Positions 2,569-26,837 of a stretch of DNA of 26,837 bases are shown here, one piece after another. The notes beneath the pieces were generated by a model, which made no database searches, was not told where the DNA came from, and saw only the letters and a list, made by a program, of their open reading frames with translations. This DNA comes from a virus. Within the stretch, counting starts at the first letter, position 1; each line of letters opens with the position of its first letter. The DNA lies in the IMG/VR virus record IMGVR_UViG_3300005841_000077, positions 1-26,837 of that record; one strand, 5' to 3'. The translations under genes were made by a program, and so were the position numbers.

Positions 2569-3279
2569 ATGCCCTATTTCATCGATCCGCACACCTATAA
2601 AAGCCCGAACTACGATAACCGTCCATCAGGAACGGTTGTTGACGCGATCGTGATTCATACCACCGAAGGCCGCTGGCCGAGCGATGCAGAATGGCTGTGC
2701 AATCCGGACGCCGGCGTCTCGTGTCACTACGTCATACCGCCAACCGGCGTGATCATCTACCGCCTCGTGCCGGACGGTCGGCGCGCGTGGCATGCCGGCA
2801 CATCGTCCTACGCCGGCCGATCCAATTGGAATAACTTTAGCATTGGCGTCGAAGTCTCTCACATGCAGGGCGATGCGTGGCCAGCTGGCCAGCATGACAT
2901 GCTCGCCAGCCTCTGCCGCAAGCTGATCGACGCATACCCGATCGCAGAGGTGAATATCGCGGCGCATCGGTGGGTTGCGCCCGATCGGAAGATCGATCCG
3001 ACTGACTGGAATGATAGCGACTTCAAGGCCTGGATCGCCAGTCTCTACACGCCGACGATCGTTCGCTACGTCGTGACATCTCCCTGCGCGATACTCACGG
3101 CGCGCGCGGGCGATGCGCCGCCGGCCGCGGGGCCGGACAACGGTCAAACCTGGCTGGACGTTGGCGACATCGTGAACGGCGAATCCCAGCCGGAAAATGG
3201 ATGGCTCTGGATAAGCGACGATGAGTTTAACCCGCCCGGTATTGGGTTCGTGCCGGCCAGTTATGCCGAGCGGCTATGA
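2569..3279 (+). CDS. Endolysin: N-acetylmuramoyl-L-alanine amidase (Amidase_2/PGRP fold) with C-terminal SH3-like region
   Basis: 236 residues. It would cleave the bond between N-acetylmuramic acid and L-alanine in peptidoglycan at the end of infection. Zinc-site and catalytic residues of the Amidase_2 family can be read: His30 in AIVIHTTEG, His133 in IAAHRWVAP, and Lys141 and Asp143 in RKIDPTDW; WHAG (74-77) and IGVEV (92-96) are also typical. Residues ~160-236 (YVVTSPCAILTARAGD to GIGFVPASYAERL) look like a bacterial-SH3-type wall-binding domain. There is no signal peptide, so release needs a holin, for which the gene at 4760 is a candidate. The ATG at 2569 is chosen over upstream ATGs because the family homology begins here. 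Its stop overlaps the next gene (ATGA). Confidence 0.92.
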   Translation: MPYFIDPHTYKSPNYDNRPSGTVVDAIVIHTTEGRWPSDAEWLCNPDAGVSCHYVIPPTGVIIYRLVPDGRRAWHAGTSSYAGRSNWNNFSIGVEVSHMQGDAWPAGQHDMLASLCRKLIDAYPIAEVNIAAHRWVAPDRKIDPTDWNDSDFKAWIASLYTPTIVRYVVTSPCAILTARAGDAPPAAGPDNGQTWLDVGDIVNGESQPENGWLWISDDEFNPPGIGFVPASYAERL

Positions 3280-3950
3280 TACCGTATTACGAAGCCAACG
3301 GCATCACGATCTATCACGGCGACTGCCGCGCGCTGGCGCTGCCGGAGCGGCCCGCGCTCGTGCTGGCCGATCCGCCGTATGGCGCGAATGAGCGAACCGA
3401 CCGCGCGAGTAAAGGGCGCGGCGTTCGTCCTAAATTGCAAGGCGGTATAGCCAGAAGCAAGGATCATGCGCCGGTTGCTGGAGATAATGAGTCCTTCGAT
3501 CCATCGCACCTGTTGGCGCTCAAAACAAAAACAATCCTTTGGGGCGCAAACTATTACGCCGATAAGCTGCCGCCCGCGCGCGGTTGGCTAGTCTGGGACA
3601 AGCGCGACGGCATAACATCGGATGACAACGCCGATTGCGAATTAGCTTGGACGAACACAGACGCGCCCGCGCGATTGTTTGCTCACCTTTGGCGCGGTGT
3701 GTGCCGCGCGTCGGAAGTCGGTCAACTCGTGCTGCATCCTACCCAAAAGCCCGTCGCGCTCATGCGCTGGTGTCTCGCGCGCGCCAAGATCGCGCCCGGC
3801 GCGCTCGTGTACGACCCGTACATGGGGAGCGGGCCGATCGCAAAGGCGTGCAAGCAACTCGGCTATCGCTATATCGGATGTGAGCTGGTGGAAAGTTACT
3901 GCGAAACGGCCGCGCTTGGATTGCAACAAGAAGTAATGGCACTCGCATGA
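3276..3950 (+). CDS. DNA methyltransferase, beta class (N6-adenine or N4-cytosine)
   Basis: 224 residues. The catalytic motif IV DPPYG is at 32-36, and the AdoMet-binding motif I is near the C-terminus (YDPYMGSG, ~179-186, followed by GYRYIGCE), i.e. the beta-class order. HPTQKPVALM (from 154) is a hallmark of this family. It transfers a methyl group from AdoMet to adenine or cytosine; no restriction enzyme is adjacent, so it is an orphan enzyme that may protect phage DNA or mimic a host modification. A separate target-recognition domain is small or absent (residues ~37-90 are the candidate). ATGA overlap with the amidase shows co-translation. The target sequence is unknown; GATC, hugely abundant here, is a testable guess. 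Confidence 0.92.
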   Translation: MIPYYEANGITIYHGDCRALALPERPALVLADPPYGANERTDRASKGRGVRPKLQGGIARSKDHAPVAGDNESFDPSHLLALKTKTILWGANYYADKLPPARGWLVWDKRDGITSDDNADCELAWTNTDAPARLFAHLWRGVCRASEVGQLVLHPTQKPVALMRWCLARAKIAPGALVYDPYMGSGPIAKACKQLGYRYIGCELVESYCETAALGLQQEVMALA

Positions 3951-10978: not shown

Positions 10979-11037
10979 GCTTTCAGCTATCAGCCGTCAG
11001 CCCGACTCCTGATAGCTGATAGCTGATAGCTGATAGC
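10979..11037. repeat. TGATAGC heptamer array in inverted orientation pairs
   Basis: Four perfect tandem copies of TGATAGC at 11010-11037 face three reverse-complement, partly degenerate copies at 10979-10999 (GCTTTCA, GCTATCA, GCCGTCA). The two halves can pair as a hairpin in the mRNA between the capsid gene and the next gene. No T run follows. I recall similar heptamer tandem repeats from Cyanobacteria and Chloroflexota genomes. Confidence 0.85.
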
Positions 11038-11052
11038 TCGGGAGAATACACT

Positions 11053-23716: not shown

Positions 23717-24523
23717 TCATGTCATGCAATAGCCGGATTCACATGCGTCGTCAAAGTCATCGAACATGTCAGATTGATCACCTATCACGCTATCAAGGGG
23801 CCGTAGTTTGCTCGTTAAAAAAATCGGTTCCTTCCCTAATCGTGTTCGTTGGCTTAGCAGACTTTGTTCTAGCTTGATAGCTCGATCGAAGAGCGCCGGG
23901 TTTGTACGCTTCATCGTTTGCCAGTCTTTTATACGATGATAGGGACAAAACCAACAAGCAGACTTTGGCGGAATAGGCAACGCTGCATGCGTAATGACGT
24001 TCATGCAATCCTGGCGGTTCAGCCGCAGATCGATAAGCGGGTACTCCTTTTGGATCAGTGGATACGCGGGATCGTCTGTTTTCATCCGATGATATTCGTC
24101 AATACTGATGCCTAACCCCATTCGCGCCGGCGCTGTTTTCACTACGCCGTATTCTTTCAACCATCGATTGATTTGATTGATCTTGAATTCTTGTGTGCAT
24201 GTGCGCCCGCTCGGCATGCCTGATGGGAACATATAGGCTGGAATATCAACAGATTTTGATCCGTCCTTTGTCATTCGCTGATAAAGTGTCTGCTCTGTTC
24301 CATCCTTGCGAATATGCCGTAATTCATGCAGTTCAATCCCATGCGCCAGCGCATACGGTTTCGCGACGTTTTCGACGTACGCCAGCGTGGCCGGATGCTC
24401 GCTGTCGTCGCCCACATTGCAGAATAGGAAAATTGGAAAGTCGATCGCGCGCTGCGCCGCCAAGACCAGCGCGGCCGTACTCTGGACGCCGCCGCCATAG
24501 GAAAAGGTGCGTAGTTGTGTCAT
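23717..24523 (-). CDS. PP-loop ATPase, PAPS-reductase/adenine-nucleotide alpha-hydrolase-like, with four Cys
   Basis: 268 residues. FSYGGGVQST (7-16) is the PP-loop that activates a substrate by adenylation with ATP, as in PAPS reductases, DndC and tRNA thiolases. PSGRTCTQEFK (Cys109), LGISIDEYHRMK (137-148), Cys173 and SACWFCPYH (Cys190, Cys193) leave four Cys that could hold an Fe-S cluster or zinc. Such genes occur in many phages with unknown substrate; sulphur chemistry on a nucleotide or nucleic acid is an inference. The ATG overlaps the replication gene stop (ATGA), ribosome site GAGG. GC is about 48% in samples, well below neighbours, a sign of later acquisition. Confidence 0.85.
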   Translation of the reverse strand: MTQLRTFSYGGGVQSTAALVLAAQRAIDFPIFLFCNVGDDSEHPATLAYVENVAKPYALAHGIELHELRHIRKDGTEQTLYQRMTKDGSKSVDIPAYMFPSGMPSGRTCTQEFKINQINRWLKEYGVVKTAPARMGLGISIDEYHRMKTDDPAYPLIQKEYPLIDLRLNRQDCMNVITHAALPIPPKSACWFCPYHRIKDWQTMKRTNPALFDRAIKLEQSLLSQRTRLGKEPIFLTSKLRPLDSVIGDQSDMFDDFDDACESGYCMT

Positions 24524-25512
24524 CGTTTTACCTCGCTCAGCTCTTTCTCCAGCTCGGCCAGCGCCTGGTCATCCGTCGCGCCGTCTACGAGCGCTTCAAC
24601 CACGATCCGCATATCGCCGAACGCGGCGCCCGGCCCGAGCAGGTCAACGGCGCGCCAGTGGGCATCGCGGTACGCCGCGTTTCGCCGCTGCGCGTCGTCC
24701 GGCGGCGCGCTGCCGAGCTGGTACGCCGGGTCACGAGCGTAGGACTCGGGATCGAGCGGGCGGGCGGGATCGGGCGGGGCGGCATGCAGCTGGCCGTTTG
24801 CGATTGCGGCGTGAAATGCGCCGCTGGCGCACAAACCGGCCCTGATGCGCTGCTCAAAATGCGCCCATGTGGCGCGAATCTGCGCCGGCGTCAAGTCCGG
24901 CCGAGCCGCTAGCGCTCTGGCGATCAGTTTCGGCGCCGTGCCTAATTCGCTCAGCAGCGCGGCGCGGTGATCCGATGGCGGGATCGAATCGGCGCCGCAT
25001 GGTAGTTTATATTTAGCAGCAGAGTCTGAGTCATGCTCTGCTGCTACTAAGACATGATCTTCCATGCATTGCGCGATTTGATCCCCCTCGGGATCAAAAT
25101 CATACTCCGCATTCTGCTGCGCTAAAAAGCGATCCGACGATGGGATCAACACCGATTCGGCGGCATCCTCAGAATCGATCCCGCGCGGGATCATTTGATC
25201 CGCCTCGGGATCAAACAGGCGTGTAATCAACCCCGTTTCGCGATCGTAGATGATATACCCGTCATACGCGAGCTGGCCTAACAACTCCGCGACGTGGCCG
25301 GCGCTCGCATAGCCAGCCCAATCGGCCAGCGCGCGATTACGCGGGCGGATCGTGCCGCCGACGCCGCAATGATCGCAGATTGCTGCGAGCAACCGACCGA
25401 CCGGGGGGATGTATGTTTGGGCGTAGGGATTTACGATGTCTCGCGTATTCCTTACATCGCTGTCGGAATATCCGCCGCTAGACAAGGAATTACTTCCGTG
25501 GTAAGATTCCAT
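24520..25512 (-). CDS. Replication initiator-like protein (winged-helix N-terminus) with origin repeats inside its gene
   Basis: 330 residues; ribosome site AAAGGA seven bases before ATG 25512. Residues ~30-95 (YIPPVGRLLAAICDHCG, RPRNRALADWAGYASAGHVA, ELLGQLAYDGYIIYDRETG) form a winged helix like those of phage O-type or DnaD-like initiators. Residues ~99-185 are an acidic, poorly ordered linker (FDPEADQMIPRGIDSEDAAE) whose DNA holds five palindromic iteron-like repeats. The C-terminal ~145 residues are helical (RAALLSELGTAPKLIARALA, LTPAQIRATWAHFEQRI), as in partner-binding domains for helicase loading. Origin inside the initiator gene is the lambda O arrangement. No helicase gene is seen, so host DnaB would be recruited. 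Confidence 0.75.
   Translation of the reverse strand: MESYHGSNSLSSGGYSDSDVRNTRDIVNPYAQTYIPPVGRLLAAICDHCGVGGTIRPRNRALADWAGYASAGHVAELLGQLAYDGYIIYDRETGLITRLFDPEADQMIPRGIDSEDAAESVLIPSSDRFLAQQNAEYDFDPEGDQIAQCMEDHVLVAAEHDSDSAAKYKLPCGADSIPPSDHRAALLSELGTAPKLIARALAARPDLTPAQIRATWAHFEQRIRAGLCASGAFHAAIANGQLHAAPPDPARPLDPESYARDPAYQLGSAPPDDAQRRNAAYRDAHWRAVDLLGPGAAFGDMRIVVEALVDGATDDQALAELEKELSEVKR
24968..25215. repeat. Five GATCC/GGATC palindromic iterons: predicted phage replication origin
   Basis: Repeats centred near 24977, 25088, 25139, 25185 and 25205. The copies at 25077-25098 and 25194-25215 are 22 bases long and differ at one position; each has 8-9-base arms. The copy at 25177-25192 is a perfect 16-base palindrome (GATCCCGCGCGGGATC). 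The copies at 24969-24985 and 25131-25147 share GATCCGA-type arms with 7-base spacers. An AT-rich stretch (25002-25015) and an 11-bp-arm hairpin (25014-25024/25036-25046) lie among them. This is the expected make-up of an iteron origin with a DNA-unwinding element. Confidence 0.7.
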
Positions 25513-26106: not shown

Positions 26107-26384
26107 TCCGGCCAGCCCTCCACCGGCGGCCCCTCAAGCAATTCAGGGGGCCGGCTGAGGCTGAGCAACCAGCCGGGAATCTCATCGGCCAGCACGGGCG
26201 GGCATTCGGCGCGGTGGCGATCGGCCAGGAGCCAGATCAGACTACGCATCGATGCGCTGTGCTCTATCACGTCCGGCACGCCCGCGCCGGCGCAGTACCC
26301 GGCGCTGTAGATGTCGAAGAGAATACCGCCCATGCCGCGTTCTACGCGGTCTAACAACACATCCTCGATCGTGGTACAATCCAT
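26103..26384 (-). CDS. First gene of the leftward early operon, unknown function
   Basis: 93 residues from ATG 26384, chosen for its ribosome site AGGAG seven bases upstream. TTIEDVLLDRVERGMGGILF, SAGYCAGAGVPDVIEHSASM, RSLIWLLADRHRAECPPVLA: a mostly helical protein without membrane segment or known motif. Position at the operon head, next to the integrase promoter region, suggests an early regulator or host take-over function, but no motif supports a specific role. Confidence 0.65.
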   Translation of the reverse strand: MDCTTIEDVLLDRVERGMGGILFDIYSAGYCAGAGVPDVIEHSASMRSLIWLLADRHRAECPPVLADEIPGWLLSLSRPPELLEGPPVEGWPE

Positions 26385-26596: not shown

Positions 26597-26837
26597 TTGC
26601 TCACTGAGAACAAAACCGGGGTGGAAACCAGGCTGGCCGAGTCGCCAGCCATTCTCGGCACGCTGCCGAGCTATGCGGCCTATCTTGGCGGGCGAAAGAC
26701 CCGGCCGCGCACGATCGAGACGTATACGAAAGTCGCGACGGCGTTCATGCGCCATCTCGGAGCAGAGGCGACGGTCGCCGACATTACGCCCGAGTCGATC
26801 GGGCGTAATGTCGGCGACCGTCGCCTCTGCTCCGAGA
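26597..26837 (+). CDS. int: Tyrosine integrase, N-terminal part (3' end continues at the window's left end)
   Basis: The frame from TTG 26597 (GGGAGGGG seven bases upstream; in-frame ATG 26582 is the alternative) encodes the N-terminal core-binding domain of a tyrosine recombinase: LPSYAAYLGGRKTRPRTIET, then YTKVATAFMRHLGAE and VADITPES. The frame stays open to the window edge, but bases after 26798 are the copy-back arm of a palindrome and probably not native. Joining residue SITPES-like end to the left-end QIARKYLAAATIAKD leaves a gap of about 5-8 residues compared with XerD, so the two pieces are one gene of roughly 320 residues. Confidence 0.88.
   Translation, partial: MLTENKTGVETRLAESPAILGTLPSYAAYLGGRKTRPRTIETYTKVATAFMRHLGAEATVADITPESIGRNVGDRRLCSE
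26755..26837. repeat. Perfect 39-bp inverted repeat ending exactly at the window edge
   Basis: Arms 26755-26793 and 26799-26837 are perfect complements around a five-base centre (GTCGA). The left arm is ordinary integrase coding sequence; the right arm breaks the integrase frame homology. Termination exactly at the window edge and location inside a gene that continues at the other edge point to a foldback made during amplification or assembly. A real hairpin telomere is the less likely alternative. Confidence 0.9.

Follow-up and report, generated by a model that had tools for sequence, protein, structure and literature searches.

Replication origins carried inside the gene of their own initiator, of the lambda type, have been known since the 1970s, and sites located within the gene of the protein that binds them are typical of initiators such as lambda O. 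In lambdoid O/ori pairs, the iteron sequence changes together with the DNA-binding domain. The origin of RepA_N plasmids also lies within rep, and the iterons of RK2, F, P1 and R6K are found outside the rep gene. To our knowledge, the lambdoid and RepA_N replicons are the known sets of self-encoded origins. The lambda origin is made up of four 18-bp iterons and a 38-bp AT-rich segment, all inside gene O (PMC3349717); dimers of O bind these iterons, which are inverted repeats (PMC5043065, PMC7466680). In RepA_N initiators, a winged-helix N-terminal domain is joined to a C-terminal domain that is host-specific, and the iterons are semi-palindromic (PMC7145576). The iterons of plasmids from Gram-negative bacteria bind monomeric initiators (PMC5043065).

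The sequence studied here is a 26,837-base IMG/VR virus record from an uncharacterised phage (IMGVR_UViG_3300005841_000077), analysed at its full length and hereafter called the window. An initial annotation had described the layout in one of its genes as lambda-O-like. The likeness holds for the layout, as the protein P0001 has a DNA-binding domain, a linker whose coding sequence contains the iterons and a C-terminal domain, and does not hold for the sequence or for a lambda-P-like neighbour. As in lambda O, the iterons have the inverted-repeat form that suits a dimer, and they are located in the linker-coding part of the gene, at gene positions 301-544 of 993 (349-433 of 900 in O). As in lambda, too, an AT-rich segment adjoins them, in 8/8 genes when the seven full-length homologues described below are counted together with the window gene, and their specificity changes with the N-terminal domain among relatives. 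Unlike the lambda iterons, which are about 20-24 bp apart and all on one side of the AT-rich region, those of the window are for the most part spaced by about 45-57 bp and occur to either side of a conserved dyad, four on one side and one on the other. The place of P, the helicase loader gene, is occupied by a PAPS-reductase-like gene. The profile comparison with O gave an hhalign probability of 0.7% over 18 residues, and this alignment to the O C-terminus was rejected as far too weak. With E values up to 0.5 allowed, none of the eight members matched an O-type family in Pfam or PHROGs, the only near PHROG match being a weak Ren-like one (E 0.01, two members).

The comparison with RepA_N proteins (pSK41, pTZ2162, pAD1) and with PLE RepA leads to a similar picture. 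The winged-helix N-terminus, the variable C-terminus and the semi-palindromic iterons are alike, but the window iterons lack the poly-A centre of the RepA_N plasmids and the RepA_N domain (PF06970) was not matched in the eight proteins at E up to 0.5. With RK2, F, P1 and R6K the window shares replicon-specific iterons beside an AT-rich unwinding region; it differs from them in that its iterons are palindromes inside the gene. Judging from these comparisons, the window system would work like lambda O/ori-lambda and RepA_N without being, by sequence, a demonstrable member of either.

Genome and gene content

The plus strand of the window encodes an integrase, an endolysin, a methylase-like protein, a terminase, a portal protein and head and tail proteins, and a block of minus-strand genes occupies about 21.2-26.1 kb. 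The end and the start of the record each carry a part of the integrase gene. On the uninterrupted gene of G001, a relative, the end piece reaches base 524 and the start piece continues from base 529; the genome is therefore circular and only a few bases are missing. The relative G012 is circular too, as it carries an exact 127-bp terminal repeat. Within the integrase gene, the last ~80 bases of the window (26758-26837) make up an almost perfect fold-back palindrome, in which the final ~36 bases fold back on the preceding sequence. The comparison with G001 and G003 suggests that this is most simply an assembly artefact. An exact tandem repeat, CTGATAG in 4.3 copies, is found just after the major capsid gene (11009-11038).

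No helicase, primase, polymerase, loader or other initiator was recognised among the window genes scanned. The slot after the initiator gene varies within the family: it contains a PAPS-reductase-like gene in the window and L097, a methylase-like gene in L100 and, in L101 (3975-4349), the gene of a 124-aa protein which directly follows the initiator with a 4-bp overlap and consists mostly of DnaA domain IV (PF08299, E 2e-19). Such a DnaA-domain-IV neighbour is present in only one of the eight relatives.

The putative initiator and its relatives

The structure of P0001 was predicted with AlphaFold2 from the eight-member alignment of the family. The model contains an N-terminal winged-helix DNA-binding domain (residues ~34-104, pLDDT ~75-80), a linker (residues 105-179) of low confidence or disordered, and a helical C-terminal domain. 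The iterons (codons 101-182) fall in the linker, where the initial annotation had placed them. The winged helix aligns with the DNA-binding domains of the CRP family (VIA-align Z ~10, rmsd 1.8, 65 residues), and CRP/FadR-type regulators are its closest folds; the fold is nonetheless generic and common to transcription regulators. The Foldseek search with this domain gave no significant E value. Its list includes the RepA_N-type structures 4pt7 and 5kbj and the initiator-like 4pql (E 0.23-0.48); as pointers to a DnaD-like N-terminal fold these matches are weak, no better than those to many unrelated winged helices. For the fold of the C-terminal domain, even the best structural match was unconvincing (VIA-align Z 6.1; Foldseek E above 1). 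Neither Pfam and PHROGs, at E up to 1, nor NCBIfam contained a match to P0001, single-sequence searches of IMG/VR and of GenBank phages (tblastn for the latter) found nothing, and no sequence relation to known initiators was detectable.

The relatives were reached through the major capsid protein and then by alignment search, which provided seven full-length homologues (L097, L098, L099, L100, L101, L102 and L104) and one partial copy. All members are metagenomic contigs. A contig scan of genomes with the family alignment retrieved no relative, and the L101 protein had no match among plasmids and GenBank phages. A Chloroflexi MAG has a related capsid; a sample of 400 genomes from its phylum gave one marginal hit, rejected because it reads as a LexA-like repressor.

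Table 1 Features of the putative origin region, in window positions
Feature	Position	Strand	Basis or remark
PAPS-reductase-like gene, next to the initiator gene	23717..24523	-	phrog_424, E 2.4e-34; overlaps initiator gene by 4 bp
Putative initiator gene (P0001, 330 aa, 993 bases)	24520..25512	-	ORF list, AlphaFold2, 7 full-length homologues
Winged-helix DNA-binding domain, CRP-like fold, codons 34-104	25201..25413	-	AlphaFold2 and VIA-align
Iteron 1, GATCCGCCTCGGGATC	25197..25212		within 22-mer 25194-25215
Iteron 2, GATCCCGCGCGGGATC	25177..25192		codon frame differs from iteron 1
Iteron 3, GATCCGACGATGGGATC	25131..25147		pattern scan and shuffles
Iteron 4, GATCCCCCTCGGGATC	25080..25095		within 22-mer 25077-25098
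Iteron 5, GATCCGATGGCGGGATC	24969..24985		far side of dyad from iterons 1-4
Outer arm CCATGC of conserved element	25062..25067		pairs with GCATGG 24997-25002
AT-richest 60 bp of gene	about 24999..25058		60% A+T against 38% for the gene; overlaps dyad
Conserved dyad/hairpin, TAGCAGCAGAG-11 nt-CTCTGCTGCTA	25014..25046		11 perfect pairs; putative unwinding or loading element
Outer arm GCATGG of conserved element	24997..25002		pairs with CCATGC 25062-25067

Palindromic iterons

The five GATCC/GGATC palindromes that had been noticed within about 250 bases are indeed present (Table 1), all of the form GATCC-N6/7-GGATC, and so are the two 22-base copies differing by one base, which contain iterons 1 and 4. 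A scan for GATCC-N4-8-GGATC found these five sites only in the 26,837 bases of the record and none with the reversed pattern used as a control, when the independent frequencies of the half-sites predict ~0.6 palindromes over the whole window. The half-sites are similarly concentrated, with 10 in the 250-bp stretch and 5 in the next-best one. In synonymous shuffles, which reorder the synonymous codons of the gene and keep the protein, the mean count was 0.51 and the maximum 4, so that none of 2000 reached five. The window iterons are read in two codon frames, as DPEADQ and DPEGDQ in one and MIPRGI, LIPSSDR and SIPPSDH in the other. These unrelated peptides imply that the repeats are repeats of DNA and not of protein.

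In each of the seven full-length homologues, the linker-coding part likewise contains GATC palindromes of its own. Among the eight phages the palindromes fall into five types, with GATC in all five: GATCCCG..CGGGATC in the window; a GATCACGNNNCGTGATC-type in L099, L101 and L102, with exactly 4 copies per record, all in the gene and none elsewhere; GATCAGCTGATC-based sites in L097 and L098; GATCGATC-N-GATCGATC in L100; and GATCGATCASCTGATCGATC in L104. The observed count was reached by 0/2000 synonymous shuffles in six of the eight genes. L097 and L098 have short sites, and there 29 and 43 of 2000 shuffles, respectively, matched it. A palindrome of the phage's own type is present on the iteron-5 side of the dyad in 6/7 homologues (imperfect in two of them), and a degenerate one in L100.

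One may ask whether these repeats are a by-product of a low-complexity peptide or of a generally frequent GATC. The presence of GATC in all five types is striking, but GATC is over-represented throughout the genomes of these phages (observed/expected 1.31-1.53). In addition, Asp, Arg and Ser abound in the linker peptide, and all four copies are in a single frame in L099, L101 and L102. Yet, the synonymous shuffles do not reproduce the counts, the iterons occupy two frames in three phages (the window, L100 and L104), the palindrome arms of L101 and L102 are largely kept while the centre varies, and the repeated sequence differs according to the type of DNA-binding domain. We regard this explanation as very improbable, the least credible of those considered.

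The relationship between iterons and protein domains is best seen in pairs of relatives. Between the window and L097, identity is 88% over the C-terminal tail but 34% over the DNA-binding domain, and the two have different iterons. For L099 and L101 the DNA-binding domain is the similar part (95%, against 34% for the tail), and these two have their iterons in common. The DNA-binding domain of the window is closest to the L099 group (58-61%), and the sites of both types have the form GATC-N8/9-GATC. Similarly, the L104 domain is closest to those of L097 and L098 (57-58%), and L104 shares the GATCASCTGATC core of their sites. In these alignments, the iteron type follows the DNA-binding domain and not the C-terminus, which suggests that the iterons and this domain travel as a cassette, as they do in lambdoid phages. 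Conservation in relatives had been put forward as a check: the kind of repeat is kept inside the gene, the exact repeats of the window are not. Such a change of iteron sequence is the pattern expected of iterons and does not refute an origin.

Another possibility is that P0001 binds the sites as an element for partition (centromere-like) or for packaging. Clustered sites accompanied by a DNA-binding protein encoded on the same element would look similar, and the genome is circular. Nevertheless, nothing like ParA was recognised among the genes, 8/8 records of the family have an integrase match, and the location of the sites within the gene of their binder is, as noted for lambda O, a habit of initiators. 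This explanation seems very improbable to us.

The conserved AT-rich dyad

In every homologue, a conserved element is located between the palindromes, roughly ATGGWA...TAGTAGCAGCAG-loop-CTGCTGCTGCTA...TACCAT. In the window it corresponds to the hairpin among the palindromes reported by the initial annotation, whose 11 pairs are perfect; the AT-rich stretch described at 25002-25015 is also real and lies within the AT-richest 60 bp of the gene. These 60 bp overlap the dyad in 8/8 genes, with an A+T content of only 55-63%. When the comparison is restricted to pairs of phages with different types of DNA-binding domain, the synonymous codons of the dyad are identical in 115/120 comparisons, against 37.7 expected from codon usage, a ratio that is the highest in the gene. 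The stem is stronger than expected from synonymous shuffling in six of the eight genes (0-5 of 400 shuffles). It does not exceed this null in L098 and L099, whose stems are interrupted and without a long perfect hairpin, that of L099 having 13 pairs and one mismatch. In L097, one C-G pair of the stem is replaced by T-A, with the change compensated on both sides. A DNA pattern derived from the right side of the element retrieves only members of the family from the whole IMG/VR collection. The distance from the dyad to the centre of the last palindrome upstream is 42-43 bp in most members, and about 52 bp in L104; this constancy may be explained by common descent, because the interval is itself a conserved sequence. 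A second zone of strong synonymous conservation across types covers codons 1-23 (25444-25512, ratio about 2.3) and suggests another DNA or RNA element at the start of the gene.

The dyad also bears on the possibility that P0001 is a winged-helix transcription regulator and that the palindromes are intragenic operators acting, for example, in autorepression by roadblock. The closest folds, already mentioned, are those of regulators, the palindromes would suit a dimer, and one of them forms a weak terminator-like stem. However, the sites are clustered in the gene and absent from the rest of the contigs, apart from one lone GATCAGCTGATC in G004, and no promoter-like site occurs among them, the two matches being located at 25479-25507 and 26351-26380 on the other strand. 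Neither the frozen AT-rich dyad nor the lack of another recognised replication gene is accounted for by regulation. An operator function is thus improbable, if somewhat less so than the other two alternatives.

A probable replication origin within the initiator gene

In our opinion, the cluster is very probably a self-contained, theta-type origin of phage replication, located within the sequence that codes for its own initiator. Several observations argue for this reading: the palindromes exceed the synonymous expectation and are read in two codon frames in three phages, each homologue has its own palindrome type and this type tracks the DNA-binding domain, in all eight genes the AT-richest 60 bp overlap the dyad, which has nearly frozen codons and one compensated pair, and the position of the iterons in the gene resembles that in lambda O. 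To these may be added that no other replication gene was recognised among the window genes scanned and that the next gene of L101 is DnaA domain-IV-like. Comparison with the relatives supports the origin reading of the initial annotation. Other observations weigh against it, namely the undetectable sequence relation to known initiators, the missing match to a P-like loader gene, the generic DNA-binding fold, the imperfect hairpins of L098 and L099 and the metagenomic nature of all members. A GC-skew profile had been suggested as a further check. It shows no extremum at 25.1 kb, its circular minimum and maximum being at 3098 and 21061, which also counts against an origin there; yet GC skew follows gene orientation and is confounded by it, so that it is uninformative, either way, on an origin at this position.

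If the cluster is an origin, the winged-helix domain would bind the five palindromic iterons as a dimer, four on one side of the dyad and one on the other. Assembly on both sides could bend or strain the DNA in between and open the dyad region, possibly with extrusion of the hairpin. The helical C-terminal domain would then recruit the host replicative helicase or its loader, and replication would start in theta mode. One may go further and imagine that an initiator family unrelated to lambda O and RepA_N arrived independently at an in-gene origin, that its DNA-binding domain is exchanged between phages in a single cassette with the iterons, and that the iteron-flanked hairpin dyad gives the host helicase a structured (cruciform or single-strand) point of entry that dispenses with a phage loader. 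We consider this extended scenario less likely than not.

Nature provides eight variants in which five types of iteron are matched to their DNA-binding domains, and this makes the protein-DNA recognition code and the role of the dyad directly testable. The analysis names a probable replication protein for a group of phages in which none was annotated, and a family without database matches would display the lambda-type logic of self-encoded origins. It also suggests a route to the origins of uncharacterised phages, through in-gene palindromes that change with the DNA-binding domain.

GATC sites and methylation

Since the iterons contain GATC, methylation by an enzyme of the phage itself had been proposed to tune initiation. 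Of the eight records, some of which are fragments, 4 contain an N6/N4 methylase match, and the two largest (38-kb and 37-kb) do not. Control of the origin by a phage enzyme in the manner of Dam/SeqA is thus unsupported. The N6/N4-methylase-like gene of the window (3276-3950) matches only the C-terminal third of PF01555 and may be split, divergent or incomplete. Finally, GGATCC has no copy in the window, where 8.2 are expected and GATC is over-represented 1.41-fold; a possible explanation, kept out of the argument for the origin, is avoidance of a host restriction site (BamHI-type).
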